From positions 18,066-82,065 of IMG/VR virus record IMGVR_UViG_3300030002_000005: 64,000 nucleotides of DNA; one strand, 5' to 3'. The notes beneath the pieces are model-generated. The model had not been told where the DNA came from. It saw only the letters and a list, made by a program, of their open reading frames with translations, and searched no databases. Position 1 is the first letter of the stretch. Each line of letters begins with the position of its first letter. Source of the stretch: a virus. Both the position numbers and the translations under genes were made by a program. Positions 7,045 to 46,941 of the stretch are shown here, piece after piece.

Positions 7045-7076
7045 AAAAAAGCCTCTGAATTTCAGAGGCTTTTTTT
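7043..7076. terminator. Bidirectional terminator
   Basis: GCCTCTG, a 5-nt loop and CAGAGGC are flanked by an A-run on the left and a T-run on the right. It therefore works for the rightward gene ending at 7044 and for the leftward hub gene whose stop is at 7075-7077. Confidence 0.9.
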
Positions 7077-10000
7077 ATGCTAAATGTGTACTATGATCGT
7101 CCAAGGCTAGCTCGTCCATTTTCAGAATGTTTGCTGCATAGAACGACTTATTCAACGTATCAAAAATACCATATACATATTTTACACCTGTAGATATATC
7201 CGCCTCACTTATGCCATTCATCCTAGCTCTTTCGATTGTGGCGGCATAGTTTTTTGCATAATGTGATCCATGATAATAACAGAAGATACTACTAGATGCA
7301 AGTCCATTACACTGTCTCTCAATCGATTCAATTAGTGAACAGTGAGCTTTTATCATTATTTCTGGATTATCAAATACGTTTTGCATGAATATAGGCAAAT
7401 TGGTGTCGGATTTCATGATATTTCTTTCGTACTTAATTTCAGAATTACTCTTAAATGGACTTAAAAGCATAGCTGTATCATTAGTACTCATGCCTTTAAG
7501 TAAGCTATTCTTTTCGGTTGATGTAAATTCAGATGATTTTAATATAGCACGTATAGCTGTTTCAGTTATAAATTGTGACATGCCCATAGCTGCAACCGTT
7601 CTGTCTTTATTATACGAATAGTTTGCAGTTCTATATCCAGATTCTTTATATTCCTCAGCCGCTATAATGTTTGCATTCAAATTATATTTAGCTGAATAGT
7701 AATTAATCATCGAGATAATTGCCTCAGCATAATTGCTATTTGTCATTACAACATTAGGAGTTTCTGAAAGTACATTACCATTTGCGTCCATTGTTCGGTG
7801 TGTGTATGACGGCGTTGCTACCCATGTTCTCTGTATACCATTATAATAAGCGGTTTTTGAGAATAATTCATTGTGATGATAACTTGCACACACTGATTTA
7901 ATAAAGTCTTCACCTTTGCTTGTCAATTTAACAAATGCCCCACCGATCTTATGTTCATACATTGATTTAACCCTACCCATATCTCCGATTGGAGTCTTTA
8001 TCTCTGCCACTGTGTTATCGTCATTATTTGACACATGCGAACTACTTCCGCCGTATCCGAATGCTACTGATGACTCGATTACTCTTGGTATAGGATATTT
8101 CAATATCTTTGTACCATTGAAAGAGGTTGTCATATGGTTTTCACTGATGTTATGCTCAACGCCCAATATCAAATACACGCCATTATACATGGGAACGTTT
8201 TCCAATTGAAAATACTGTGTCGGTTGAATCATTGCATTTCCAAGTCCTGTTACTGTAGCCTTATATGCTCTATTCTCATAAAGATTGAAAAGATTCTGAC
8301 CTTTTGGCGTCGGTGCTTGTTTAGAATTGTCTCCAGCTAATCTTGATAAAATTTGCAATGATTCATTTGTTTCAGGGAATTCTTTGCTATCAATTTTAAT
8401 GTCTTTAAACATGCTTTGATTCTGCGCACCGAATTTAATCTTGAACGCATTCACATTGCTCCAGTCTACATTTTTATTGTTCATTTGATTCAGGTTTTCG
8501 CCAGCACTCTCAAAAATAAATGCTTTGTCGTTAAAGACCTGTGATTCCTTGTCCAAGTTTTCAATACCGTCATTAAAGTAATTGTTGTTACTATTTGACA
8601 GATAATTTGACGAACCGCCGACATACATGCAGACATACATTGGACTGGTATTTATAATTGTACCTGTGTTAATTCTAAAACAGTCTTTCCAATTCTCAGA
8701 GCCTTTTACGGTCATAAAATTCTGAATTGGAAAGAATTCGAATCCGTTGACAGATAATAGTGTACTTAGAACTGTGAATATACTTGTTTCATCACTCTCA
8801 AACAAATTAACAAGCATTTCAGGATTTATCATTGTGTCGCCAATAGGATTCATGCTACGATCAACAAACGCAAACATATCAATAAGCCTATTTCCACTTA
8901 AATTAAATGGATAACCTATAATTGTTGGGCTTGTTCCTGAAATCCATTTATCATTTATATTTTTAAATGAATAATACATTTGATTTATAACATCCTTATC
9001 CTGTGACATGCTTTTAAAGGCATTATCATCGTCAACAATTGCTTTCTTTCTAAATCTCAATTCACTGCCAAGTTTTTTAAAGAAGGTTGTGAAGAAGTCG
9101 CCGACAGCTTTGTTTGAGGCTGGTGATGTTACAATAGTAGCTAATGATGTATACTTGTCATTATCTGGAGTCATTTTAAATGTAATCTCGTTATAATTTA
9201 TCAGATAAATCCTATTCATCATCAATTTATCAATACCTGCGCTAGTAATAGCTTCTTCGTAATATTTAGTACGATTAAGTACGTCTCTATTTAAAGCAAC
9301 TGTATACATATTAGCCATCGCAAGTCTTAGCTGTGGAAAACGGCTAGCCATAAAATCGTTATATTGCGCAATAAATGCGGCTTTATCATTCTTGCTCAAA
9401 TATTTGTTACAGTCATGCATATCAGCAAATAAATGCACATTAGCTATATTACTAAATAATTCTTTCATTGCATCAACTTTAAATGACGATGATGATACCC
9501 TCAATATTGCTCCAATGTATGCTGGCATAAATTCTGGCATTTCCACAATAGATGCAAATGAAAATGTTGACTCATTAAGATAATTTGGTGCTTTGTTAAA
9601 CATTGAGCATGTATTTCCAAAGCTGGACAAATAAAATAAAGATAACATTTCTGGATCATTCAATGTTGTCATGCCATAAGTGTCAAATAACGTTTTAGCA
9701 TGTGCGCCCAAAAATGTTGACCATATGTCTATAAAGTCGCCTGCATTTTTCAACTCAAAGGCAGTAACCTTGTCTACCAATGAGTCGTATAGAATATTTC
9801 CACTGTTAAACAATTGATCAATTGTGTGCGATGTTGCGTCACCATGTCCACACAAGAATTTTGTAGCGGTGAAAGGCATGTCAGGCGTATTATTAGTGTC
9901 TTTAATAACTAAAACATTTTCCTTTGAGTAAAAGTATTTCTTTCCATAATAGTCTGTATCAATGAATGCCCATACTGGCGGTCTCATTTTCTTTATGGCA

Positions 10001-12150
10001 GCATTTAATGGATCGCTTTCGTCTGTTACGTCAGATTTTGGCGTTATGTCTAGCTTATTATTAATCTCAAACCCGACGTAGTTATCATTTTCGCGTGACG
10101 TATAAAAATCAACGCCATTTAAATTGGCTGATGCGTCCTCGAAATTATATAGTGATGATAATTCATTTTTTGCATATGTTAGAAAAGAACTGATATCCGA
10201 AGCGTATTTATCTGATTGAGTGATCATCATATCAACAACAACAGAATCCTGAATTGAATTTGCTAAATTAATAGCCTCAGAATTACTATACATTTGCGTA
10301 TATAATTCGTTGTTAAGAACAGCATTGCGTACAGTATTAGTCAATACGTTATATCTTTCAATTAGTTTACCATATGTATAGCCAGCATCCCTAGGATTAT
10401 CATATGGTGTCATACTGCCAGTTGAATGACTGGTGGCAAACACTGAATCGGCTGGCGTGAATGGAATCCAAACATTGTCGCCGTTTGTATTTGCATTATC
10501 TTTACTGTGTAATTTTTTTAGCTCTTTCTTATATTTTAAGTAAGTTGCAATATAATCGTCAATAAAGTCTAATTCTGGAAATTTAATACCCATTCTCTCA
10601 CGCAGGTCTATAGGCGACTCTCTTTTATTGTTTTCGATAATCAATGGAAACGAATAGATTACATCTGTATTCTGCTGCTCTCCATTAGTATACGCCTTAT
10701 CAGCTACAAATAAACCCTTATCAATAGTATGTTCATTCTGTGCCTTATTTGCGGTATATCTTAGAGCATCGAAAAATGTGTCAACATCATCTAACAATAT
10801 TTCGAATATATTATATATGGTAGGGTTCATACCCAGAATGTCATATACCATTTTATTTATATTCGTAGTTAAGTCATCGCTAGCTTTATTTTTTGAATTT
10901 GTGGACTTAGCACTTTGGCTACGCAATAAGTTATACATATCAGTAATATCAATACAAACATATTCAACGATTCTATTGCCGTTTCTGCTCATATTGTTAA
11001 TTATTTTAGGCGATTTTATAGTACCTGTAAAAGATAGAGCATCGCCAGAGAATAAAAGATCAAACCTTTTAATAACTTCTGTAGTATAATTCTTCAAAGC
11101 ATTTATCAACATATTGGTAGTGCTGTCAGTTACAGTTGTAAAAACTTGCGTTGGGGTAATAGTTGTAGTTCCAGCCAAAACACCTGTTTCAAATCCTATT
11201 AATAAGGCTGGCTTTGGTGAATTCTTAGTGACATAATTATAGTCCTTATATTTGCTTCTATAGCTGTTAAAGGATGGAATTAGTACCAATTGCTCATTAT
11301 CTGTCTTAGCGGCATCGGTTGTCAGTGTATATATCTCAGGACTACCTACTCTTAAGTATTCGTCTTCTTTGAATGACGAAAGGAATGTAAAGGCTTCTGA
11401 ATTATTTTCAATACCTGTAATTGACTTTGTTAATACGCCACTGTTAACATCATTTTTTATTTTGTTTGGTAAAACCGAATACAAATTCTTAATCTTTTCG
11501 ATAAGATCAAGCGTATTAGTAGGTCTAACACCAACATTGGTGCTAAGCGTTTCGCCTTTACCTATAAATGCTGTATGAGCCGAATATTGAAGCAAGACAT
11601 CGCTTAATGGTGCATAAGTCATAGCTACAAAGTCTGCATCAATAACAAAGTTGCCAGTTTCTGACTGAAACTCACTAGTATATTTAACTAAATGTAATTT
11701 ATATGTAAGAGCCTTTCCATAAAATCCTTTTATGGTCAGCTCAAATGTTGGAGGCGGAAAGTCAAATAATATTCTATATGGTGATTCGGCATTATTAAAG
11801 AATGATAATCCTCGAATGTCAGCAAATTTGATATTCACCTGCGGTATGAAGGACGAATTAATAACAGTTTTTATAGACGTAATACCAAATGCTTCCTGAG
11901 TATTCGGTGTACTTCCGTCATACCAATTTGTGGTAAAGTCAAGGTTCTTATTTCCACCTAGAAAATTGGTTTCAAAATCTGATCCACTTTCTGTCTTCAC
12001 TTTGGCAGAGTTGCCATTAATAGTTATAACAGTTCTATCCTTTGCAGTGGCTGTTAATTTGGCGAAAATATGCATGTCTTGATACTGTGGAGCACCATTA
12101 ATAACATTCTCATTATTTATTTCATTAGGATCGATTAAATTGACAGCCAT
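7075..12150 (-). CDS. Giant baseplate hub protein with C-terminal lytic transglycosylase
   Basis: A 1691-residue virion protein. Near residue 1330 is LILGVEHNISENHMTTSF, a pattern typical of tail hub proteins of the gp27/late-control-D type. The C-terminal region (about 1480-1680) looks like an SLT-type lytic transglycosylase: NANIIAAEEYKESGY holds the probable catalytic Glu, followed by AAMGMSQF, the conserved G-x-x-Q segment. It would then combine the roles of T4 gp27 and the gp5 lysozyme, cutting peptidoglycan as the tail contracts. The N-terminal 200 residues carry a beta-rich structural domain (PPPTFELTIKGFYGK). It is transcribed from its own late box, opposite to the flanking head genes. 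No other cell-wall lytic enzyme is seen in the window. Confidence 0.82.
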   Translation of the reverse strand: MAVNLIDPNEINNENVINGAPQYQDMHIFAKLTATAKDRTVITINGNSAKVKTESGSDFETNFLGGNKNLDFTTNWYDGSTPNTQEAFGITSIKTVINSSFIPQVNIKFADIRGLSFFNNAESPYRILFDFPPPTFELTIKGFYGKALTYKLHLVKYTSEFQSETGNFVIDADFVAMTYAPLSDVLLQYSAHTAFIGKGETLSTNVGVRPTNTLDLIEKIKNLYSVLPNKIKNDVNSGVLTKSITGIENNSEAFTFLSSFKEDEYLRVGSPEIYTLTTDAAKTDNEQLVLIPSFNSYRSKYKDYNYVTKNSPKPALLIGFETGVLAGTTTITPTQVFTTVTDSTTNMLINALKNYTTEVIKRFDLLFSGDALSFTGTIKSPKIINNMSRNGNRIVEYVCIDITDMYNLLRSQSAKSTNSKNKASDDLTTNINKMVYDILGMNPTIYNIFEILLDDVDTFFDALRYTANKAQNEHTIDKGLFVADKAYTNGEQQNTDVIYSFPLIIENNKRESPIDLRERMGIKFPELDFIDDYIATYLKYKKELKKLHSKDNANTNGDNVWIPFTPADSVFATSHSTGSMTPYDNPRDAGYTYGKLIERYNVLTNTVRNAVLNNELYTQMYSNSEAINLANSIQDSVVVDMMITQSDKYASDISSFLTYAKNELSSLYNFEDASANLNGVDFYTSRENDNYVGFEINNKLDITPKSDVTDESDPLNAAIKKMRPPVWAFIDTDYYGKKYFYSKENVLVIKDTNNTPDMPFTATKFLCGHGDATSHTIDQLFNSGNILYDSLVDKVTAFELKNAGDFIDIWSTFLGAHAKTLFDTYGMTTLNDPEMLSLFYLSSFGNTCSMFNKAPNYLNESTFSFASIVEMPEFMPAYIGAILRVSSSSFKVDAMKELFSNIANVHLFADMHDCNKYLSKNDKAAFIAQYNDFMASRFPQLRLAMANMYTVALNRDVLNRTKYYEEAITSAGIDKLMMNRIYLINYNEITFKMTPDNDKYTSLATIVTSPASNKAVGDFFTTFFKKLGSELRFRKKAIVDDDNAFKSMSQDKDVINQMYYSFKNINDKWISGTSPTIIGYPFNLSGNRLIDMFAFVDRSMNPIGDTMINPEMLVNLFESDETSIFTVLSTLLSVNGFEFFPIQNFMTVKGSENWKDCFRINTGTIINTSPMYVCMYVGGSSNYLSNSNNNYFNDGIENLDKESQVFNDKAFIFESAGENLNQMNNKNVDWSNVNAFKIKFGAQNQSMFKDIKIDSKEFPETNESLQILSRLAGDNSKQAPTPKGQNLFNLYENRAYKATVTGLGNAMIQPTQYFQLENVPMYNGVYLILGVEHNISENHMTTSFNGTKILKYPIPRVIESSVAFGYGGSSSHVSNNDDNTVAEIKTPIGDMGRVKSMYEHKIGGAFVKLTSKGEDFIKSVCASYHHNELFSKTAYYNGIQRTWVATPSYTHRTMDANGNVLSETPNVVMTNSNYAEAIISMINYYSAKYNLNANIIAAEEYKESGYRTANYSYNKDRTVAAMGMSQFITETAIRAILKSSEFTSTEKNSLLKGMSTNDTAMLLSPFKSNSEIKYERNIMKSDTNLPIFMQNVFDNPEIMIKAHCSLIESIERQCNGLASSSIFCYYHGSHYAKNYAATIERARMNGISEADISTGVKYVYGIFDTLNKSFYAANILKMDELALDDHSTHLA

Positions 12151-14389: not shown

Positions 14390-16033
14390 ATGGGATTTTT
14401 AACAGAAAGTAACGAAGTAGGAAACATTGGTCTTAAACAACTTCGTGAACAAAGAGAAATAACTACAAACCGTTGGGAAAAAATCGGTTTGCTTAAAGGT
14501 CTTGACGGACATGTAAAAGAAAACTGCGCACAGCTTTTCGAAAACCAGTTATCTTATATGATCAATGAATCAACCGATTCAGCATCATCAGGTCAGTTTG
14601 AGACTGTTGCGTTCCCTGTAATTCGTAGGGTATTCGCAAAATTGCTTGCCAACGATATCGTTAGTGTTCAGGCGTTGAATTTACCTATCGGTAAATTGTA
14701 TTACATCAACCCTAAAACTAGTACTGCTCCTCATACGGCCCCTCGTGGTGCTTATGGAAATGCTGCTGACAATCAACCAGATGCTGGTACTCAGTACGAA
14801 TCACGTTCATTGTATGATGCATTCTATGCTCAGAGCTACAACGACGAAGGAACTTCATTGTTCGACAACTCTAAAGGGGAAATTACCACTAACACAGGTA
14901 CAACTGTTTCAACATATGTTGTTGGTGACAAGTATGTAAGTGTAAAATTCAGTGGTTTCACTGCAACAGAACAAGGTAAATTGATCGGGCCTAAGGGTGC
15001 TGCTCAGGATACTGAATCATTCCTTGCAGGTTTGAAAATCACTTCCAACACAGCCTTCAATGCACCAGCTGCTTTTGCAACTGAAAGCATTCTTGCTGGA
15101 GCAACTCTTCCTTTCAATGTTAAGGTTCAGAAATACGGACAAGCAATTGTCAATACAGCTGGCGTTATTGAATTGATCGTTGACCTAACATACCCAGGCG
15201 CAGATGGTTACCAACCATTATCAGCTGCAACTTCTGGCGTAACTTTCAACTATACTTACAGAACATACAGCGATCTTGAAGAAGATTCTCACATGGCTGA
15301 GGTAACTTTCGTTCTTGATCAGGTAACTGTTTCTGTTGAAACTCGTAAAATGAGATCACAGTGGACTCCAGAACTTGCACAGGACGTTAGCGCATTCCAC
15401 AACATCGATGCAGAAGCTGAATTGACTGCTTTATTGTCAGAACAAATGGCAGCTGAAATCGACAGAGAAATCTTACGTGACTTACGTAGAGGTGCAGCTT
15501 GGACAGCACGTTGGGACTATAACGGTCTTAGACGTCAGACTACTGCCTACATGGGTACACAGAAAGACTGGAATCAGACCTTGTTAACCAAGATCAACCA
15601 GATCAGTGCTCAGATTCACAAATCTACCCTTCGTGGTGGCGCATCTTGGATCGTTGTTTCTCCAGAAGTTAGTGCCGTAATGGATGACTTAGAGTATTTC
15701 CACGTGTCTAATGCAGACCCAGAACAGGATAAATATAACATGGGTATCGAAAAAGTAGGTACATTATCAGCACGTTACCTTGTGTATCGTGACCCATATG
15801 CACCAGCAAACACGATCCTTATCGGTCACAAAGGAACAAGTATCCTAGAAACCGGTTACATTTATGCTCCCTACGTTCCCATGCAGTTAACACCTGTAAT
15901 GTATAACCCTTTTGATTTCACACCAATACGTGGTATCATCACTCGTTATGCTAAGAAAATGGTTCTTAACCGTTACTTCGGTAGAATCTTCTGCGATGGT
16001 CTACAGACATTCGGAATCGGCGATTTAAACTAG
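14390..16033 (+). CDS. Major capsid protein (gp23-like)
   Basis: Main shell protein of the head, HK97 fold. The 547-residue chain has the gp23-type N-terminal region (LFENQLSYMINEST) and the conserved FPVIRRVFAKLLANDIVSVQ. The C-terminal half includes MRSQWTPELAQDVSAFH and IVVSPEVSAVMDDLEYF. T4 gp23 is 521 aa and its N-terminal about 65 residues are removed by the protease; a similar processing event is likely here. No promoter box is seen in the 43-nt gap after the scaffold gene, so it probably relies on the upstream late promoters. A terminator follows. Confidence 0.96.
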   Translation: MGFLTESNEVGNIGLKQLREQREITTNRWEKIGLLKGLDGHVKENCAQLFENQLSYMINESTDSASSGQFETVAFPVIRRVFAKLLANDIVSVQALNLPIGKLYYINPKTSTAPHTAPRGAYGNAADNQPDAGTQYESRSLYDAFYAQSYNDEGTSLFDNSKGEITTNTGTTVSTYVVGDKYVSVKFSGFTATEQGKLIGPKGAAQDTESFLAGLKITSNTAFNAPAAFATESILAGATLPFNVKVQKYGQAIVNTAGVIELIVDLTYPGADGYQPLSAATSGVTFNYTYRTYSDLEEDSHMAEVTFVLDQVTVSVETRKMRSQWTPELAQDVSAFHNIDAEAELTALLSEQMAAEIDREILRDLRRGAAWTARWDYNGLRRQTTAYMGTQKDWNQTLLTKINQISAQIHKSTLRGGASWIVVSPEVSAVMDDLEYFHVSNADPEQDKYNMGIEKVGTLSARYLVYRDPYAPANTILIGHKGTSILETGYIYAPYVPMQLTPVMYNPFDFTPIRGIITRYAKKMVLNRYFGRIFCDGLQTFGIGDLN

Positions 16034-16120: not shown

Positions 16121-16483
16121 ATGAAAGAATTAATTAAATTAATAATCGAAAATCTGGATGACAGCTTATTAAAGCCTAAATACAGAAAAATGCCATTCAG
16201 AAACAAATATACAGGTCACTGTTATGTTGCAACTGAAACGTTATATCATTTATTAGATGATGACGAAAAGGAAATTTATTGTCCATCAATATTAAAAATA
16301 AATAACGATACTCACTGGTTTTTAAAAAATAAACTTGATGGCACAATCATAGATATTACAAAAAATCAATATGATTTTGATATCAATTATAATGAGTCAA
16401 GATATTCAGCATTTTTAACAAAAGCACCCTCAAAAAGATCACAAACGCTAATACATAGAATATATGAGGAATCTGGTTTATAA
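16121..16483 (+). CDS. Small protein with Cys-His-Asp pattern
   Basis: A 120-residue protein. A GTG nine bases upstream (16112) is also possible, but ATG at 16121 is preferred. The order of conserved-looking residues is Cys in GHCYVATE, His in DTHWFLK, and Asp in TIIDITKNQYD, ending with KAPSKRSQTLIHR. This Cys-His-Asp order is compatible with a papain/transglutaminase-like fold, but that is inference; similar small phage proteins are usually annotated hypothetical. It has a host-type promoter of its own after the capsid terminator and overlaps the start of the homing endonuclease gene, so the two may have arrived as one cassette. Confidence 0.75.
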   Translation: MKELIKLIIENLDDSLLKPKYRKMPFRNKYTGHCYVATETLYHLLDDDEKEIYCPSILKINNDTHWFLKNKLDGTIIDITKNQYDFDINYNESRYSAFLTKAPSKRSQTLIHRIYEESGL

Positions 16484-17960
16484 TAAAACTATAATCCTAT
16501 TTCTAAGCATCGATGATATGATCACGATGAACAGAGGGGATTTAAAAAAAATTAAAGAAAATTATTTAACATCTTATGAAAACTGTATAATTTATAATTA
16601 TCATGATTTAAAACATCATAAAAACATCATAAAAGATAAGATAAATAAGTTGAATTTTAGAGATCAAATAAGAATTAATGCTAGAGAATGTAAAATACGA
16701 CACATTGAAAATACTGTAAAAAATGATTTTTTAAATGTAAATCACATACAAGGAACTGATAAGTCTCAAATTTTTTACGGTGCTTATAAAAATGAGGAGC
16801 TGATTGCTGTCATGACTTTCGATAATAAATCAAAAATGAACGGCAAACAAAATGATAATGAATTTGATTTGTCAAGATTTTCGATAAGTTTAGGACATAT
16901 TGTCGTTGGAGTTTTTTCTAAGATTTTAAAACAATTCATAAACGATTATAAGCCATTAAAAATAACATCATACGCCGATCTAAATTATACAAATAAAGAT
17001 AAAAATATATATGATTCAAATAATTTTTATCTGAATAAAGTTATTCAACCAGATTACAAGATTTTATTAAAAAGTTCAAATATTTTATATCATAAATTTA
17101 CTTACGGCACTAAATTTTTTAGAAACAATGAAATTAGCGACATACAAAAAAGTATGATAAGGGATGATTCTAAAAGGGTGTGGAACTGTGGTAAATTACG
17201 ATACGTTATCAGATTGAATGAGAATAATATGGTTATTTTTGGTTATATATATAAAATAACTAATGCATTAAACGGTAAAATCTATATAGGTCAAACAACT
17301 CGAACACTTAATAAAAGAATATGGGAGTATAAAAGTGCATATAATAAAGGTGCATTTTATAATCAATATTTATTAAACTCATTTAATAAATATGGCTGGG
17401 ATGCATTTGAATTCACCATGATTGATAGTGCCACAAATATAACCGAACTAAATGAAAAAGAAATCTATTACATTTCGAAATATAAATCAAATGATCGAAA
17501 ATTTGGATATAACATAGAATCTGGCGGATGTAATTCAATTCCATCTACAGAAACTCTTGAGAAAATGTCAAGATCACATTTAGGAATTAAGCAAAGCACT
17601 GAATGGATAAATAAGCGAATATCTCTTGCTGGGTCTGATAACGCAAAAAAATACGGCAAAGCAAAGACAGATGATGAAAAAACAGAATTGAGCATAAATT
17701 CTCCAAAATTCTGGCTCGGTAAAGAAAGAGATCAGACCACAAAGGATAAAATAAGTCAAACTAAATTAAAAAATGGTATATCTGATAAACAGAAGGAAGT
17801 ATTATGTAAAACAGTTTACAAAAGAAATCTAAATAACATCATAATAAATACATATGAGTCCACATTAATAGCTTCTAAGTCTGAGGGTGTTAATCAGTCT
17901 ACAATATCAAGATGGTGTAAAGATAATAAAACAATGAATGGCTTTAAATGGTCATATTGA
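16464..17960 (+). CDS. GIY-YIG homing endonuclease with an extra N-terminal domain
   Basis: Mobile endonuclease inserted between the capsid and neck genes. Residues about 60-235 form a domain seen in other phage homing enzymes (NHIQGTDKSQIFYGAYKN, then LSRFSISLGHIVVGVFSKIL and ITSYADLNY). A GIY-YIG nuclease follows (FGYIYKITNALNGKIYIGQ, residue about 255, with Arg in LNKRIWEY and Glu in LNEKEIYYI). After it come NUMOD3-like repeats (SRSHLGIKQS, WLGKERDQTTKDKIS) and a C-terminal DNA-binding helix-turn-helix (SEGVNQSTISRWCKDN). The start at 16464 overlaps the previous gene by 20 nt; an in-frame ATG at 16518 would avoid this and drop a hydrophobic stretch. Lower G+C than the neighbouring capsid gene supports transfer. 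Confidence 0.88.
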   Translation: MRNLVYNKTIILFLSIDDMITMNRGDLKKIKENYLTSYENCIIYNYHDLKHHKNIIKDKINKLNFRDQIRINARECKIRHIENTVKNDFLNVNHIQGTDKSQIFYGAYKNEELIAVMTFDNKSKMNGKQNDNEFDLSRFSISLGHIVVGVFSKILKQFINDYKPLKITSYADLNYTNKDKNIYDSNNFYLNKVIQPDYKILLKSSNILYHKFTYGTKFFRNNEISDIQKSMIRDDSKRVWNCGKLRYVIRLNENNMVIFGYIYKITNALNGKIYIGQTTRTLNKRIWEYKSAYNKGAFYNQYLLNSFNKYGWDAFEFTMIDSATNITELNEKEIYYISKYKSNDRKFGYNIESGGCNSIPSTETLEKMSRSHLGIKQSTEWINKRISLAGSDNAKKYGKAKTDDEKTELSINSPKFWLGKERDQTTKDKISQTKLKNGISDKQKEVLCKTVYKRNLNNIIINTYESTLIASKSEGVNQSTISRWCKDNKTMNGFKWSY

Positions 17961-18292: not shown

Positions 18293-19789
18293 TTAATCCT
18301 CCATTTTTTCATCAGTCCATTCATGGTCAAATATTAACTCATGCTTAGCTCTAGTAATCGCAACATATTCCAAATTCTTTTCTTGTGCCATCTGCCAGCC
18401 TCTCGAACAAGGCAGCGGCATTAAATCTGGACGAGCAATAAAAACACGATTAGCTTCGCTACCCTTTGCTTTATGTATGGTAGACAATATAATGCCGTCA
18501 CCATTATCATCACTAAAGATCATAGATATTTTTGCCTTTAGATCGAGAACATCTTGTGACAATCTCCCCAGAAATGATAAAGTTAAAACCTTGTCTTCCA
18601 AAGCAACATAGCCACTATGTTTTTCAGGGTTTAGCATTTGCGTTGCTGCTAAGTCCTTCTTCATCATAAATAGTTTTGTCTCCCAATAGTAAATCATTTT
18701 ATCGATAGTCTTATGATCCTTGATCATTTCAATTAAGCCTAATCCGATATCTGTACCTTTAATAACAGCTTTCTTATGTTGAACAAGTAGTTCAAAGAAC
18801 AGTCTAATCAAAGGTGCTGTTGTTCTACATAAAACAAAGTCACCGCTTTCAGCTTCTTTTAAAATTGAACCCTCTCTCACTACGCCGTCAGGAGCATTCT
18901 CCAATGCTTTTATATCTGGAACAATCTCATTGGCTTTAAGTATGACATTTTTTGCACATCTGAAAGAATATGATAGTTTTAATGTTTCAGTATTCTTATA
19001 ATCCCGAAACCATTGGAATGACTTATCATCGGAATAGTTAAACCCGTAAATGCCTTGAAAATAATCACCAACTGCAATAAGCCTTCCAACTGTCTTACCA
19101 GTCACCTTATCTTTTTTCAAAATCTTTTCAATAATGCGAATCTGGCATCTGTTTACGTCTTGAACCTCGTCAACAAAAACAACGTCCTGTGGAAACATCC
19201 ATATTGAGTTATCGACAGCAGGTAAGTATACCATGTCGGTATAGTCAAATGTCGTGCGATCATTGGTGGCAGTATCCAAAACTTTGAGTGCCCTTTTTAT
19301 GTCCTCTGGTTTATTCAGACCGATATCATATCTGTCCGATATATATGGAACATATTCAGGCTTTAGCGTTAAAGTTAAACGACAAGCGTCCACTAAGCGT
19401 TTTATTTGTCCGAAATATACGTATTTATCGGACTCGTTCTTTATGTTGTCCGAATAAGACCATGATTTTGCTTTTTTCTGAATTATCTTATCGATTTTCA
19501 ATTCGTCAAATTTGATCTTACCCTTATATTTGCGCATAATTGCTGAATAGCCTAATCCATAGGTTGTATAGCATTTCACATGCTCTGGAAGCTTTAAAGA
19601 AAGTTCTTCTTTAATATGTTTATTAAATGCTAAAAATGTTATAGCTAATGATGAAGGTAATAATTTAACTGCCTCGACAATTGTGGTGGTTTTACCTGCG
19701 CCAGCAAATGCTTCAATTAGAATATTCTCTGATCTATCTTTAACAAATTTAAAAATTGTTTTCTGTTCTGCTGTGGGTATCATTTTCAT
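18293..19789 (-). CDS. UvrD/PcrA-like superfamily 1 DNA helicase
   Basis: ATP-dependent 3'-5' type DNA helicase, probably for phage replication or recombination. The 498-residue protein shows SF1 motifs in order: FAGAGKTTT (I), LAFNKHIKEEL (Ia), VFVDEVQDVN (II), VGDYFQGIYGF (III), LSYSFRCAKNV (IV), STIHKAKGSEANRV (V) and EYVAITRAKHEL (VI). This set is UvrD/PcrA-like (1A) rather than Dda-like. An ATG further upstream (19816) would add nine residues inside the previous gene. I prefer ATG at 19789 because it overlaps the upstream stop as TAATG, a translational-coupling arrangement also seen twice more in this window. Confidence 0.92.
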   Translation of the reverse strand: MKMIPTAEQKTIFKFVKDRSENILIEAFAGAGKTTTIVEAVKLLPSSLAITFLAFNKHIKEELSLKLPEHVKCYTTYGLGYSAIMRKYKGKIKFDELKIDKIIQKKAKSWSYSDNIKNESDKYVYFGQIKRLVDACRLTLTLKPEYVPYISDRYDIGLNKPEDIKRALKVLDTATNDRTTFDYTDMVYLPAVDNSIWMFPQDVVFVDEVQDVNRCQIRIIEKILKKDKVTGKTVGRLIAVGDYFQGIYGFNYSDDKSFQWFRDYKNTETLKLSYSFRCAKNVILKANEIVPDIKALENAPDGVVREGSILKEAESGDFVLCRTTAPLIRLFFELLVQHKKAVIKGTDIGLGLIEMIKDHKTIDKMIYYWETKLFMMKKDLAATQMLNPEKHSGYVALEDKVLTLSFLGRLSQDVLDLKAKISMIFSDDNGDGIILSTIHKAKGSEANRVFIARPDLMPLPCSRGWQMAQEKNLEYVAITRAKHELIFDHEWTDEKMED

Positions 19790-20265
19790 TAAAAAACCCC
19801 GTCCTTTCTTACCCAAGATGAAAGGTTTGTAACTTCGTCTACTTTATACTCGTAAACTTCCTTTTCGTCGATCACATATACGAGCAAACCATCATCAAGT
19901 AAAAAAAGCTTATCGTCATATTGAAATTTATCCTTGTTTAATAAATCGTCAATCGTATCAACCTTGAAATTGTAAAACAAGTCAAATGCTCTGCTTATTT
20001 CAGCATTTGTTTTCATTTGACCTAGTATTAATTCGCCAACTTCTGCTGATATATCGCTAATAAATGCATAATTATCTTCAAGCAACTGTTGTAAAACTGG
20101 ATTTACACTATAATTCTTACTAGCGATCATTCCATTCAAAATATACCTCACAATCTCAAAAGCGAAGAATTTATCCTCTGGCTTCATCACATAGTCTACA
20201 GGTAAATCTATGTACGGCATACCAGTTTCATCATTCAATTTAATGTCGTATTCAATCTTTATCAT
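19789..20265 (-). CDS. Hypothetical protein, first gene of helicase operon
   Basis: A 158-residue acidic protein of mixed helical and beta composition with no membrane segment. I do not recognise it. Its stop overlaps the helicase start (TAATG), so the two are translationally coupled. A host-type promoter (20327 to 20297, minus strand) lies about 30 nt upstream, which marks this as an early or middle operon. Helicase accessory function is possible but unsupported. Confidence 0.8.
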   Translation of the reverse strand: MIKIEYDIKLNDETGMPYIDLPVDYVMKPEDKFFAFEIVRYILNGMIASKNYSVNPVLQQLLEDNYAFISDISAEVGELILGQMKTNAEISRAFDLFYNFKVDTIDDLLNKDKFQYDDKLFLLDDGLLVYVIDEKEVYEYKVDEVTNLSSWVRKDGVF

Positions 20266-32362: not shown

Positions 32363-35131
32363 ATGACTGAATTTGTATTCACCTCGCCAGGTGTTAAATT
32401 TAAAGAACGTGACTTAACTTATGTTACACGTAATGTTGGAATCACAACGTTAGGACTTGCTGGGGAAACACTTAAAGGCCCAGCATTTGAGCCATTTTAT
32501 ATTAAAGACAGACCACAATTTTTGGATAAATTTGGAGCACAAGACACAAGCAAATATAGCAATGGAAACCTAAGATATCAATTGCCTTATGTTGCTAACG
32601 CATATTTACAGGAGTCTGATCAACTGTGGGTCACCAGAGTATTGGGTTTATCAGGATATGATGCAGGTTCGGCTTGGACTATTAGTCTTAATGCTGGCGT
32701 TGATCCATCTACAATTGTAAGTGGCACAACCAGTGATGGTAGTCGTGAATTCACTGATAATACTTTCTTTGGTACACCTGTTTATACTGTTGGTCAAGAA
32801 GGTGCTGCTTTTAGTGGTTTTATTAAAAATGAAGATGGCGTTAGTTTTATTGGAAGTTATTACACATTTACAGTAACATCAATTTCTGGTGGTACTGGAA
32901 ATGTTGACTACGTAGAGACTCCGTTAACAGGTACGCCTTATGTTCAATATCAGGATATGGTATTAGCTGTATTGAGAAGCAAAGCAACTGTAACTGACAA
33001 TGTTGATGCTCCTTCCGTAACGACATTCACTGTTAATGCTATTGATTTTGATTCAAATTTAACAAATGATGGCACTGGTGATCTTTTCAGAGAATTTACC
33101 TTATATGTTTCGTTATCAGATGGCGGAACTGCTACATACAATGTATCAATGAATCCAAATGCTAGTAATTTTATAGCTAATGTATTAGGCACTACTCCAA
33201 CAGCCAAACAGTCGCATATTTGGGTTGAAGCGGTTTATCCTGATCTAATTAGTAAACTCGACGTTGATGGCGACGCATTTACGCCAGAAACAATGCTATC
33301 AGGTATTGCTTCATATGCTTTCGGTATTTCCAATAACATTATTAAAAATACCGACGGTATTTTTGTTAATCGTAAGGAAAAATTCAAAACACCTGAAACA
33401 CCTTGGGTTGTATCTCAGCTAAAAGGTAATATTGTTGACAGGTTATTTAAATTTGTATCAATTTCTGACGGTGATGATGCCAACCAAGAAATCAAGGTGA
33501 GTATCGTTAATATTAATCCTGAAACGCTTGAATTTGACGTAATTATCAGATCATTTTATGATACTGACGCTAATATGAACATTTTGGAATCATTCACAAG
33601 ATGCTCTCTAATTCAGTCAAAAACAAATTTTATCGGACAACGAATTGGTACTACCGACGATAACTATGAACTGTTAAGTAAATATGTTATGGTTGAGCTA
33701 GCTGCAGATATTAAACCAGAATCATTTCCAGCAGGTTTTGAAGGATATTGGTTTAACACATTTAAAACAGCTGTAACGCCAAAGATTTTCTACAAAACAA
33801 GCTACGCTTATACAGATAAAATTGCGAAAACCTCTTTAGGTATTTCAAATACTGCATATAATACAGCTAATTCAGTTGGTATAGGTGTTAATCAAAATTT
33901 CTTCAACTATAATGGCTGGAAGAATAGCGAAAGCAATCCTACTGGATTTACAAAAACAAAGGGCTTTCATATGGACGTGGACGCATCAATCGTACTTGCA
34001 GATAATCTTGACCCACTTGAATTTGAAGTTGGTATCAGTAGCTTTAAATCTATTCAGGACGTTTTATTACCATCAAATGCTTATAATTCTATTAAAACTA
34101 GAAAATTCACTATAGCATTTTCTGGCGGATTCGACGGATGGGATATCAATAGAACAAACAGAACTCACACCGACCTTTATCGTGAAGGTGGTATCTATGA
34201 CGGAGTTGGCGCAGGTGTAACGCCAGCTAATGACTATCAGGCATGGGAAACTGCTATAAACACTTTCTCAAATCCTGAAAAGATTACCATCAATTTATTT
34301 GCGACGCCAGCAATTAACTGGTCAGACAATACTACTTTGGTAACAAAGACAATTGAAATGATCGAAGAACAAAGAACTGATAGCTTATATATTATTGATG
34401 CACCAAATATCGACATAGCAATGTCAATAGGTGATAATAATAATACTGATGTGGTTGCTTCAAACGATATTGTTGACTTGTTAAACAGCACAGATATTGA
34501 CAGTAGCTACGCTTGTACTTATTTTCCTTTCATTCAGGTTAAAGACACTCAGAACAATGTGAATGTTTATATACCGCCCACAGGCGAGGTTGCTAAAGCA
34601 ATTGCTTATACTGATACGAAGAAATTCCCTTGGTATGCACCTGCTGGTCTTGAACGTGGTGTAACCGATGCAAGAAGATCAAAATATAAATTGAGTCAGG
34701 AAGCACGTGACGTTTTATACAAAGGTAGAATTAACCCAATGGTTGACTTTTCAAACACTGGAACAGCTATATTTGGTCAGAAAACCTTACAAGTTAGAGA
34801 AAGCGCACTTGATAGAATTAACGTAAGAAGATTGTTACTTCAAATCAAGGTATTGATTTCTAATATCGCAATGAGATTGATTTTCGAACAAAATGATCAA
34901 GCAACAATTGACCAGTTCAAACAAAAAACTAATCCTATCCTTGACGGTATTAAGAGAGACAGAGGCTTGCTTGAATTCAAGGTTGTTATGGATGATACGA
35001 TCAACACGCCAGAAACCTTAGACAGAAACGAATTATACGGTGAAATTTATCTTAAACCGACTCGTTCACTAGAAAAGATTGGTATCGGTTTTACCATTGC
35101 ACCATCTGGAGCATCATTTTCAGAAATTTAA
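32363..35131 (+). CDS. Tail sheath protein (gp18-like)
   Basis: Contractile sheath subunit. The start FVFTSPGVKFKERDLTY is the usual sheath opening, followed by GLAGETLKGPAFEPFYI and WVTRVLGLSGYDAG. The C-terminal domain (about residues 760-922) holds the conserved core: KYKLSQEARDVLYKGRINP, VRRLLLQIKVLISNIAMRLIFEQND and LYGEIYLKPTRSLEKIGIGF. At 922 residues it exceeds T4 gp18 (659), the surplus lying in variable surface domains in the middle. The tube gene follows, as in T4. Confidence 0.95.
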   Translation: MTEFVFTSPGVKFKERDLTYVTRNVGITTLGLAGETLKGPAFEPFYIKDRPQFLDKFGAQDTSKYSNGNLRYQLPYVANAYLQESDQLWVTRVLGLSGYDAGSAWTISLNAGVDPSTIVSGTTSDGSREFTDNTFFGTPVYTVGQEGAAFSGFIKNEDGVSFIGSYYTFTVTSISGGTGNVDYVETPLTGTPYVQYQDMVLAVLRSKATVTDNVDAPSVTTFTVNAIDFDSNLTNDGTGDLFREFTLYVSLSDGGTATYNVSMNPNASNFIANVLGTTPTAKQSHIWVEAVYPDLISKLDVDGDAFTPETMLSGIASYAFGISNNIIKNTDGIFVNRKEKFKTPETPWVVSQLKGNIVDRLFKFVSISDGDDANQEIKVSIVNINPETLEFDVIIRSFYDTDANMNILESFTRCSLIQSKTNFIGQRIGTTDDNYELLSKYVMVELAADIKPESFPAGFEGYWFNTFKTAVTPKIFYKTSYAYTDKIAKTSLGISNTAYNTANSVGIGVNQNFFNYNGWKNSESNPTGFTKTKGFHMDVDASIVLADNLDPLEFEVGISSFKSIQDVLLPSNAYNSIKTRKFTIAFSGGFDGWDINRTNRTHTDLYREGGIYDGVGAGVTPANDYQAWETAINTFSNPEKITINLFATPAINWSDNTTLVTKTIEMIEEQRTDSLYIIDAPNIDIAMSIGDNNNTDVVASNDIVDLLNSTDIDSSYACTYFPFIQVKDTQNNVNVYIPPTGEVAKAIAYTDTKKFPWYAPAGLERGVTDARRSKYKLSQEARDVLYKGRINPMVDFSNTGTAIFGQKTLQVRESALDRINVRRLLLQIKVLISNIAMRLIFEQNDQATIDQFKQKTNPILDGIKRDRGLLEFKVVMDDTINTPETLDRNELYGEIYLKPTRSLEKIGIGFTIAPSGASFSEI

Positions 35132-35205: not shown

Positions 35206-35694
35206 ATGGCAGATTTAATTAGGGGTATTCCATTCGCATATGAACCAAAACGTATTAATCGTTTCTTCGCCGAATTTCCAGACGAACTTGGCATTGAAGT
35301 ATGGGCTATACAAAAATTCAAGAGACCATCACTGAATATAAATAAGGTTGATATTAAGTATATGAATGAGACTAATTATGTCGCAGGTGCATATGCTTGG
35401 CAAGAACTCGACCTTACCTTTCTTGACGTGATCGGGCCTTCAACATCACAGCAACTTATGGAATGGGTAAGATTGCATGTCGAATCACTAACAGGACGTA
35501 TGGGTTATGCTGCTGGTTACAAAAAGAACATTTATCTTAAGGCACTCGATCCAGTCGGTGTTGAGGTTGAGAAATGGTTCTTGGAGCAATGTATGATAAC
35601 ATCTATCGATTTTGGCGAAAACAGCTATGACGATGATGGACTTGCTACCGTAAATGTAAAAATCCAACCTTGGAGATGTATTTTGAATGTTTAA
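35206..35694 (+). CDS. Tail tube protein (gp19-like)
   Basis: Forms the hexameric rings of the inner tail tube. 162 residues, equal to the T4 gp19 size class (163). It opens with PFAYEPKRINRFFAEFPDE and ends with MITSIDFGENSYDDDGLATV followed by VKIQPWRC, the typical tube beta-sandwich closing strands. It sits directly after the sheath gene. Confidence 0.95.
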   Translation: MADLIRGIPFAYEPKRINRFFAEFPDELGIEVWAIQKFKRPSLNINKVDIKYMNETNYVAGAYAWQELDLTFLDVIGPSTSQQLMEWVRLHVESLTGRMGYAAGYKKNIYLKALDPVGVEVEKWFLEQCMITSIDFGENSYDDDGLATVNVKIQPWRCILNV

Positions 35695-43258: not shown

Positions 43259-44128
43259 ATGGCAAAGGAAACAGGAGCACAAGCAATCAAGAATGCAATA
43301 CAAGGATACAATAAAAATGCTGGGGCACAGAGCACTGGCGTATCATCCATGACAACAGGCTATAATGACGTCATGAGCAAAGAAACTGACCCTGACCTAA
43401 TTACGGTATGTGAGATAGTTCAGTTACCATCAAAAGGTTTATTCTATGAAAATCATTTATCGGAAATTAGTATTGAATACATGACTTCTAAAGACGAAGA
43501 CCTTTTAACAACGCCATCGTTAATTGAAAATGGTACTGTTTTAGACTTATTGTTAAAAAAGAAAGTCAAAACGCCAAATGTAAACACGTTCGATCTATTG
43601 CAAGGTGATAGAAATGCTTTAATATTATTTTTAAGAACTACATCATATGGCGCAGATTATTCAGTTGTCGCCACAGACCCTAGAAATGGTCAAGCATTTA
43701 AAACAGTTGTTAATTTACTTAACCTGACATATAAGGAAGTAAAAGAAATACCAGACGCTAATGGTCATTTTACAGTGTTTATTCCTATGAGAAAAAAGAA
43801 TGTTGTTTTCAGAATATTAACATATGGTGAAGACGATAACATTTCTAAAAAAGCTGAGGCTATTAAATTGGCGTATAGCAAAACATATAGCTCATACAGC
43901 ACCATTAGGCTTAAAGCAAGTATTATCTCAATTGAAGGGAATACCGATCGTGGATACATTGATAAATTTGTTGATGCGATGCCTGCCTTAGATGCTTTCA
44001 CAATTCGTAAAAAAATTGTTGAAGTATCTCCAGATGTTGACCTTAGCTATACATTTACCACTGACGATGGATTTGAATTTAAGTCCAATTTAACGCTCGG
44101 TATAGATTTTTTTTTCCCAAACACCTAG
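43259..44128 (+). CDS. Tail assembly / baseplate hub chaperone (gp26/gp51-like), 0-frame product
   Basis: 289 residues. The region VQLPSKGLFYENHLSEISIE, then a long helix-rich part with LLLKKKVKTPN and ALILFLRTTSYGADYSV matches the T4 gp26/gp51 baseplate protein family: a Pro-Ser-x-Gly opening, a short helical repeat, then R-x-x-S-Y-G. It directly precedes the tape measure gene, the normal place for tail assembly chaperones. The reading ends at TAG 44126 immediately after a run of nine T, but the -1 frame stays open and completes a family-like C terminus, so a frameshifted longer form (348 aa) is probable. Confidence 0.82.
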   Translation: MAKETGAQAIKNAIQGYNKNAGAQSTGVSSMTTGYNDVMSKETDPDLITVCEIVQLPSKGLFYENHLSEISIEYMTSKDEDLLTTPSLIENGTVLDLLLKKKVKTPNVNTFDLLQGDRNALILFLRTTSYGADYSVVATDPRNGQAFKTVVNLLNLTYKEVKEIPDANGHFTVFIPMRKKNVVFRILTYGEDDNISKKAEAIKLAYSKTYSSYSTIRLKASIISIEGNTDRGYIDKFVDAMPALDAFTIRKKIVEVSPDVDLSYTFTTDDGFEFKSNLTLGIDFFFPNT

Positions 44129-44304
44129 CAGGTGATTATAAAAAAATGGTAAATGACGAAATCTACATTCTAACTAAACATGGCAGGTTTCAAGCTGATT
44201 ATGTGGAAGGTATACCAGTTTACAAAAGGAGATATTTCTTACATTTAATGCAAAAAGAAAACGAGGAAATGGAAAAGCAGCAAGAAGCTGCTAGACATAG
44301 ATAA
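44107..44304 (+). CDS. -1 frame extension of the tail assembly protein
   Basis: The -1 frame is open from the T-run to TAA 44302-44304 and encodes PKHLAGDYKKMVNDEIY and onward, with YVEGIPVYKRRYFLHLMQKE near its end. That resembles the Pro-x-x-(E/K)-R tail of gp26-type and chaperone proteins. The slippery T TTT TTC is at 44110-44116; five bases later CACCT (44122-44126), loop AGC, AGGTG (44130-44134) forms a hairpin. Independent initiation at ATG 44146 (52 aa) is an alternative. Confidence 0.72.
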   Translation, partial: FFFPKHLAGDYKKMVNDEIYILTKHGRFQADYVEGIPVYKRRYFLHLMQKENEEMEKQQEAARHR

Positions 44305-44367: not shown

Positions 44368-46941
44368 ATGGCAGCACCAACACAGTCGGCACAAGCACAA
44401 GCAGCGGCAGCAGCTAGAGCACAGTTAGCAACCCAGCAAAAACAGGCTGTAAAAGATGCTAAACAAGCTCTTGATCTACAAAATCAAGACTTAGCATTGC
44501 TGCAAAATGAATTAAGTCTGCTTAATGGTATATTTAATAGTAGGGATCGAAACGCAAAACAAGCTGAAATTGCTCAAAAAGCACAAGATGCTAGAAATGC
44601 TGCTTTAGATCTTGAGTTAAAAAAACTTGATGCTATTACTAATAAAAGCAGTGTTGCATATACCAATCAATTAAAAAAAGTACAAAGTTTAAAAGAAGAA
44701 AATAAGGAACAAGATGCTTTAATAGAAAAGCAGAAGAAAAGTAATGAATTATACGAAGCCCGTAAAAAGCTTCTCATAGATAACACTAAACTTGAAGCAG
44801 CTTGGATACAAGGCTTGATGCAGTCAGATAAGATCATTAGACAAACCACATTAAACCTCGGCATGTCTGGTTTAAAGGCTGATATGATTAGAACTTCTTT
44901 CGAAAACTCTGCAATGTCTGTTGCCGAAATGGGTGGCGGATTGGAGGACTTACAGTCCGTAATGCAAGGATTTGCTGATGAAACAGGACGTTCCAGAGTA
45001 ATGTCTGAAAAGATGCTCGTTAATATCGTTGCAATAGGTAAAGGAACTGGTTTAGGTGTTGACAATGCCACAAAAATGGCTTCACAGTTTGAGCTAATGG
45101 GTATTGATGCACAAAAAACATATGAAATGACTGATGAATTCGTTCATTCAAGTGAGAAATATGGTATCAACACAACAAAAGCATTAAAAAACGTATCAGA
45201 TAATTTTAAGAAATTAAACCTATATAATTTTAAAGGTGGTGTAAAAGGTATGATGGAAATGTCAGCCTATGCTACAAAAATGAATATCGATTTTAGTCAG
45301 GCTTTTAATGCAATTGACACAGCAAAAACTTTGGAAGGTGCTATTGAACTAGCATCGAATCTACAGATTATGGGTGGCGAATTTGCTAAATCTGATCCTT
45401 TTGAAATGTTATTCCTTTCTCGTAATGATCCTGCAAAATTCACAGAAAAGATTAATGATATGACTAAAGGCGTTGTAACATTTCAAAAACAAGCTGATGG
45501 AACATTTACAAAATTTATATCGCCTGCTGATAGAGATCGTATGGCATCTGTTGAGAAATCATTAGGCTTACAAAATGGCGAATTAACACAGCAGGCTCTT
45601 AGAATGGCTGATATCATGAAAATGCGTAAGAACATGATTGGTTCAGGATTATCTAAAGATGATAAATCAGCTATTGAAGGTGCTGCCATATTTAATTCAA
45701 AAACTGGACAATTTCAGGTTATGGTTGGGACAACTGCTAAAAATATAGCAAATTTAACCGAAAGTGAAGCAAATGCGTTCATACAACAGAAAGCAGCTTT
45801 GGAGCAAAGAGCCAAAGATGCTTTAACATTCGAAGAAGCATTACAAGCTACATTGGCTTCCTTTAAAACATTACTATTACCAATGTTAAGAGGTGTTAAT
45901 GAGGTAATGAAAATAGTTATACCTGTTTTTCAAGACATATCACACGTTATAAAAAGCATTCTTAATAATCCAATTGGTATGGCTGCTTTAAAAATAGCTG
46001 GTGTTTTAACTGCTGCTGCTGTTTTAATTAATGGTGGTGCAACTGCATTATCTAAAGTGGTTTACTATGCATCTGGCAAGCAATTATTTGGAGGAGCTGG
46101 TGCTGGATTTGCAGGTACAATTGGTAATTCAAATAAACCGTCTCTTCCGAAAGGTAGAGGTGCTAGCGTTTTAAATGCTGGAAAAGCTTCTCAAATGGCT
46201 GGTAAAGGTAAGATGATGGCTGGTGCTGGATTTGGTGCAGCCGCTGTGGGCGTAGGTGCTGGAATTGGATTAGCTGCATTTGGAATTTCTAAGTTAGCTG
46301 ATTCAATGGCTAAACTAGATTCCACAAAAATATGGGCATTACCTGCAACGGTATTAGCTATAGGCGGTGCTGCTTTAATGATGTCTCCAGCTATAACTGC
46401 AATGGGCACAGCATTTTCTATAAGTATAGCTGCTATCGGTGCTGCTAGTGCTGCCACAATGCCAGGCCTTCTAGCTTTAGGTGCTACATTTGCTATGATT
46501 GGAGGTGGAATTGGCGCAGCCTCTGCTGGAATTGGCTATTTAGCTAAAGGAATTGCCGATGTGATGAACGCTGGTTCAGGTGGAAATATAAGCCTAGATA
46601 AAGTAAAATTATTATCAGATTCTGCGCCTGCACTTGAAAGAGTTGGGGCAGCATTTAGAGAAATAAACACAGCTATGAGAGGTAGTGCAGACGATTACAC
46701 AGCAATTGCAACAACTGTTGATGCAATCTCTAAAATGAATACTAAGAGTGGATCAGCATTCGCTGAATTGGTAACATTATTAAAAACCCCTCTAAAAGTG
46801 GAATTTGCCGATAAAGAAGTTTCTATGAAAGCAAACATAACGTTGGATATTGACGGAGAAAGATTCACAGCTAAAGCTATCAATATACCTATATTAGTTA
46901 ATAGAATGAAGAGTTATAGTGGCGGAATGATCGGACAATAA
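44368..46941 (+). CDS. Tail tape measure protein
   Basis: 857 residues; sets tail length and is expected to be ejected ahead of DNA. It begins with an Ala/Gln-rich coiled coil (about residues 1-140), continues with helical segments, then has several Ala/Gly-rich hydrophobic stretches (about 535-560, 608-640, 665-730) that look membrane-spanning. It ends with a soluble domain (TLDIDGERFTAKAINIPILV). That architecture and the position after the tail assembly chaperone are diagnostic, although the sequence does not resemble T4 gp29 (590 aa) by eye. Confidence 0.85.
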   Translation: MAAPTQSAQAQAAAAARAQLATQQKQAVKDAKQALDLQNQDLALLQNELSLLNGIFNSRDRNAKQAEIAQKAQDARNAALDLELKKLDAITNKSSVAYTNQLKKVQSLKEENKEQDALIEKQKKSNELYEARKKLLIDNTKLEAAWIQGLMQSDKIIRQTTLNLGMSGLKADMIRTSFENSAMSVAEMGGGLEDLQSVMQGFADETGRSRVMSEKMLVNIVAIGKGTGLGVDNATKMASQFELMGIDAQKTYEMTDEFVHSSEKYGINTTKALKNVSDNFKKLNLYNFKGGVKGMMEMSAYATKMNIDFSQAFNAIDTAKTLEGAIELASNLQIMGGEFAKSDPFEMLFLSRNDPAKFTEKINDMTKGVVTFQKQADGTFTKFISPADRDRMASVEKSLGLQNGELTQQALRMADIMKMRKNMIGSGLSKDDKSAIEGAAIFNSKTGQFQVMVGTTAKNIANLTESEANAFIQQKAALEQRAKDALTFEEALQATLASFKTLLLPMLRGVNEVMKIVIPVFQDISHVIKSILNNPIGMAALKIAGVLTAAAVLINGGATALSKVVYYASGKQLFGGAGAGFAGTIGNSNKPSLPKGRGASVLNAGKASQMAGKGKMMAGAGFGAAAVGVGAGIGLAAFGISKLADSMAKLDSTKIWALPATVLAIGGAALMMSPAITAMGTAFSISIAAIGAASAATMPGLLALGATFAMIGGGIGAASAGIGYLAKGIADVMNAGSGGNISLDKVKLLSDSAPALERVGAAFREINTAMRGSADDYTAIATTVDAISKMNTKSGSAFAELVTLLKTPLKVEFADKEVSMKANITLDIDGERFTAKAINIPILVNRMKSYSGGMIGQ

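Follow-up and report, generated by a model that had tools for sequence, protein, structure and literature searches.

The gp26/gp51-like gene analysed here carries a -1 shift site near its 3' end, and we conclude, with a probability of roughly 0.8, that a programmed -1 ribosomal frameshift at this site yields a short and a long tail assembly chaperone. The gene lies in the window, by which we mean the whole 64,000-nt stretch of DNA that was analysed, itself part of an 82-kb virus record. The arrangement is conserved among relatives, the extension in the -1 frame is under coding selection, and selection keeps the 0-frame stop that ends the short form; the ribosomal nature of the slip, how efficient it is, and the two products with their roles are inferred.

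The 0-frame open reading frame (ORF) runs from 43259 to 44128 on the plus strand, as do all features below unless otherwise stated, encodes 289 aa and ends with GAT TTT TTT TTC CCA AAC ACC TAG. The shift region is a run of nine Ts (T9) at 44107–44115. The slippery heptamer T TTT TTC (P-site TTT, A-site TTC) lies at 44110–44116 in the correct phase, as the sequence-only reading had claimed, and another heptamer in the same phase, T TTT TTT, lies at 44107–44113. That reading had also placed the TAG directly after the T-run, which was wrong: the TAG (44126–44128), which ends the short product, stands ten bases past it. Reading in the -1 frame meets no stop from 43 nt before the TAG, across T9, until a TAA at 44302–44304, giving a fusion of 348 aa, and the C-terminal domain of the fusion proved genuine and conserved. 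This -1 extension (44116–44304, TAA included) has 62 residues counted from the first -1 codon, for a net gain of 59 over the short form.

The 289-aa ORF matched Pfam PF12322 (T4_baseplate) with 25.3 bits against a cut-off of 24.5, and it matched PHROG 150 (baseplate hub), as did 46/46 aligned members; an NCBIfam search with the chaperone returned no match. We label it a short, gp26-like chaperone, or TAC-N. The AlphaFold model of this N domain (pLDDT 86.6) matched T4-like hub chaperones in a viral structure library, and its top match in the PDB was the HK97 tail assembly chaperone 2ob9, a weak one (E=1.2, probability 0.57). The gene's neighbours support the proposed chaperone role and the place before a tape measure gene: a tape measure protein of 857 aa is encoded at 44368–46941 (PHROG 167, E=2e-4), and a long ORF, mostly of 820–860 aa, begins within ~90 nt downstream of the chaperone gene in 48 of 52 non-redundant sequences. 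Upstream lie a tail sheath gene at 32363–35131 (PHROG 23, E=6e-67), which indicates a contractile tail, and a tail tube gene at 35206–35694 (PHROG 4542, E=7e-21).

Elsewhere in the window, a homing endonuclease-like ORF (16464–17960; PHROG 314 and others) sits just downstream of the major capsid gene (14390–16033), and a 1691-aa ORF on the minus strand (7075–12150) had no match in an NCBIfam search. A candidate second frameshift beside a helicase (18293–19816 and 19789–20265) turned out to be ordinary: no helicase match was obtained with the upstream ORF, and an ATG for the helicase frame lies right at the overlap.

Scanning IMG/VR gave 78 relatives. Complete extensions were found in 72 records, which left 52 sequences, window included, once near-copies of >95% identity were removed. 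All relatives with an intact 3' end keep the T-run and the 0-frame stop, and wherever the contig reaches far enough there is a -1 extension of 58–72 aa. Among the 52 non-redundant sequences the run is T9 in 48 and T8 in four, the first two Phe codons are always TTT, and every sequence retains at least one in-phase T TTT TTY. T TTT TTC is present in 50 of them; the remaining two (L056 and L066) have T TTT TTT instead, while two sequences with GAC followed by T8 (L034 and L049) have lost T TTT TTT and keep T TTT TTC. The comparison of relatives that the sequence-only reading had proposed thus found both slippery run and 0-frame stop in 52/52. Six non-redundant relatives (L011, L019, L048, L056, L063 and L074) have a stop in the -1 frame immediately 5' of the T-run, so that the shift must fall within the 19 nt that reach the 0-frame stop.

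Both sides of the shift bear marks of selection. Codon-position entropies in the -1 extension of the 52 sequences were 0.54/0.25/1.09 and match those of the upstream coding region; the extension is therefore selected as a protein in the -1 frame. The 0-frame stop falls 7–8 codons past a GAY codon in every sequence, and in every sequence it is supplied by a Leu codon, TTA or CTA, of the -1 frame. With a background of 66.6% TTA/CTA among Leu codons, this would have a chance of 0.666^52 = 7e-10 if the sequences were independent, a figure that is nominal only because they are related. Comparison with other Leu columns is the better control given this relatedness: of 22 conserved Leu columns, only the stop-bearing one is 100% TTA/CTA, and the next reaches 94%. 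Selection thus keeps the 0-frame stop.

These data bear directly on other ways of explaining the two frames. Homopolymers are error-prone, and an undercalled run had been offered as the alternative to a frameshift: ten true Ts would leave a single in-frame ORF. The identical arrangement in 72 records (52 non-redundant) from many metagenomes, together with selection on the stop, rejects this explanation, to which we give next to no credence. Polymerase slippage deserves more attention, though we consider it unlikely. Here the polymerase would insert an extra U on T9, so that a fraction of the mRNAs would encode the 348-aa fusion in one frame. The run is at least T8 in all 52 sequences, longer than a ribosomal heptamer requires, and T9 is the sole sense-strand T run of eight or more in the long ORFs of the window (~58 kb), as might be expected if the polymerase slipped. 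However, a ribosomal site accounts for the fixed phase, the T8 variants retain an in-phase heptamer, and homologous sites in more distant phages carry six Ts only, which are too few for efficient polymerase slippage. Such T TTT TTC sites, followed by a 0-frame stop, were found in cyanophage homologues at 37 distinct loci (KVP40-type genomes included), some of the cyanophage homologues having a -1 stop directly upstream of the site; locus L084 and two kin also keep T TTT TTC.

A split gene, in which re-initiation at the ATG near 44147 would yield the C-terminal domain as a small protein of its own, seems to us very improbable in the window. Most relatives in its clade do have an ATG ~20 nt past the stop, and two loci of the +1 clade described below (L185 and L191) have a 0-frame stop at 3209, past the usual shift site but short of the extension, followed by an ATG at which they restart; these appear split. 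Stop-start overlaps of the form TAATG, each with a possible -1 site, occur at the junctions of KVP40-type phages and Vibrio VP-1 (3272 in L092, 2906 in L095, 3017 in L093), where, judging by the sequence, re-initiation and frameshifting are both possible. Yet the ATG near 44147 is not conserved: five of the 52 sequences lack it, and two of these have no ATG, GTG or TTG there. Invariant residues L, Y and K are encoded downstream of the slip site but ahead of that Met, and re-initiation leaves the slippery run and the coding constraint upstream of the ATG unexplained. We therefore rejected re-initiation and retained programmed -1 ribosomal frameshifting as the preferred reading.

The sequence-only reading included a hairpin, CACCT-AGC-AGGTG, as part of the signal. 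It exists at 44122–44134 in the window, where its local fold has z = -0.9, but its role as a stimulator did not survive comparison with the relatives: RNAalifold found zero consensus pairs downstream of the slip site, pairing in the hairpin (81.4%) showed no excess over shuffled columns (80.0%), and the outermost pair is impossible in 17 of 42 sequences. An Rfam search gave no match. No Shine-Dalgarno-like element was visible upstream of the slip site in the alignment of relatives, and a stimulator of that type is unlikely here since a Shine-Dalgarno-like 4-mer precedes only 1/43 long ORFs (≥150 aa) of the window. This scarcity suggests, without proving it, a host of Bacteroidota type. Regions upstream of the window's long ORFs are A-rich, as in phages of Bacteroidota.

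We propose that the majority of ribosomes would terminate at the TAG at 44126 and release the 289-aa short chaperone, while a minority would shift backwards by one base on T TTT TTY within the T-run, with Phe-tRNA on TTT in the P site and Phe on TTC or TTT in the A site. Slipped ribosomes would read the -1 frame to 44302 and add a three-helix domain, giving the 348-aa form. If the two forms act as lambda gpG and gpGT do, the tape measure protein may be coated by the N domain, which both share, and tail tube subunits may be recruited by the domain that is added in the long, rarer form.

The extension, which we label TAC-C, was modelled as a three-helix domain with a pLDDT of 93. Near-top matches among viral structures include 'Gp51' of cyanophage P-HM1, with non-significant E-values, and a tblastn search against phages with the extension alone returned nothing. 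In profile comparisons, the extension of the window's clade matched that of Mel-JY01 at 96% and those of the immuto group at 84–91%; against cyanophage extensions the score depended on the direction of the comparison, 79% one way and 29% the other way. The cyanophage extension in turn matched the C terminus of T4 gp51 at 87%. Compared directly, the window-clade extension and the T4 gp51 C terminus gave no match (0.07%), and in these comparisons the two are tied only via the cyanophages.

Across the wider family the direction of the shift differs. Flavobacterium phage immuto, Mel-JY01, LR756508 and 68 distinct IMG/VR loci have their extension in the +1 frame, and in most of these +1 members (nearest relatives; L080, L081, L082, L096-L193) it is preceded by a near-invariant TT[TC]TTTGGCCTGAC. 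The [TC]TT TGG found in most of this class resembles the prfB site, and for this reason we prefer to read the shift as +1, which at the sequence level is equally -2. In public records of the +1 relatives, the related C-terminal domain is a separate hypothetical protein or is unannotated. Open +1 extensions also occur in RM378, LIS04 and SagM-GXN1; their profile matches to other extensions were non-significant.

A tree of the N domain, a quick one with several long branches, placed the window's -1 clade among +1 relatives, and strongly supported branches forced at least three changes of route; the labels of the KVP40-type, VP-1 and L084 groups are less certain in it because stop-start overlaps also occur there. 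Four routes were distinguished: -1 (the window's clade, the cyanophages and the L084 group), +1 (immuto, Mel-JY01, LR756508 and kin), split (L185 and L191), and the duplicate in-frame fusion of T4. On balance we lean slightly towards one chaperone family with the same C-terminal domain, whose route to that domain has switched repeatedly among these four. Since the window's -1 clade falls among +1 relatives, its direction would have changed separately and would not be a simple inheritance of a T4-like -1 site.

A frameshifted chaperone is the kind of thing already known. Lambda gpG/gpGT and analogous -1 frameshifts in long-tailed phages have been described (Xu et al., 2004; reviewed in PMC5009743), and the window shares with lambda a gene placed before the tape measure gene, a slippery site near its 3' end, and short and extended forms. 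It differs in having a T-run in place of lambda's slippery site and a contractile tail; the likeness drawn here is one of arrangement. On grounds of conservation, a poly-T -1 site has also been proposed in the chaperones of Pakpunavirus Adele, Vandenendeviridae and Andersonviridae, whose genes likewise precede that of the tape measure protein (PMC12846349); there the site is GTTTTT, the phage families are others, and the likening to the gp26 family is by arrangement. T4 itself shares the Pfam family, PF12322: its gp26 ends at the equivalent point (GLKEFFELL*), and its gp51 has a C-terminal extension, but in place of a frameshift T4 has a short gene plus a second gene that encodes an in-frame fusion. 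In cyanophages and marine vibriophages, gp26 is followed by a short 'gp51' ORF; gp51 of these phages lacks the first ~200 residues and shares the C terminus (Sullivan et al., 2010; PMC3037559), an observation that fits our reading of the C domain. The related domain there lies in the -1 frame, past T TTT TTC and a 0-frame stop, as in the window, although the two ORFs are annotated as separate genes, the run is T6 and not T9, and KVP40-type phages also have the TAATG overlap.

We had started from the claim that no frameshift was described for the T4 gp26/gp51 family, which is probably wrong. Vladimirov et al., 2022 (Virology 566:9) reportedly identified T4-like chaperone genes and proposed another mechanism. 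Papers that cite it give two accounts: according to PRFect (PMC10885494), some T4-like phages have one short and one long gene and no frameshifting, while a 2025 paper (PMC12846349) credits the same work with poly-T signals for a -1 shift in chaperone genes of T4-like phages. For the +1 class in the gp26/gp51 family, a limited search of the open-access literature found no description, and a change in the direction of the shift within a single homologous gene may be the part that is new.

Atkins et al., 2016 (PMC5009743) described chaperone frameshifting as conserved among long-tailed phages, 'except T4'. Here several lineages of the gp26/gp51 family, T4's own, have the frameshift and conserve it, and T4's two genes therefore look like a late replacement by duplication: T4 appears to have replaced the frameshift device by two separate genes. 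Many of the ORFs next to gp26 that public genomes list as 'gp51' or 'hypothetical' are probably fragments of a fusion that have been annotated wrongly. Finally, the change of shift direction within the family becomes testable with reporters.
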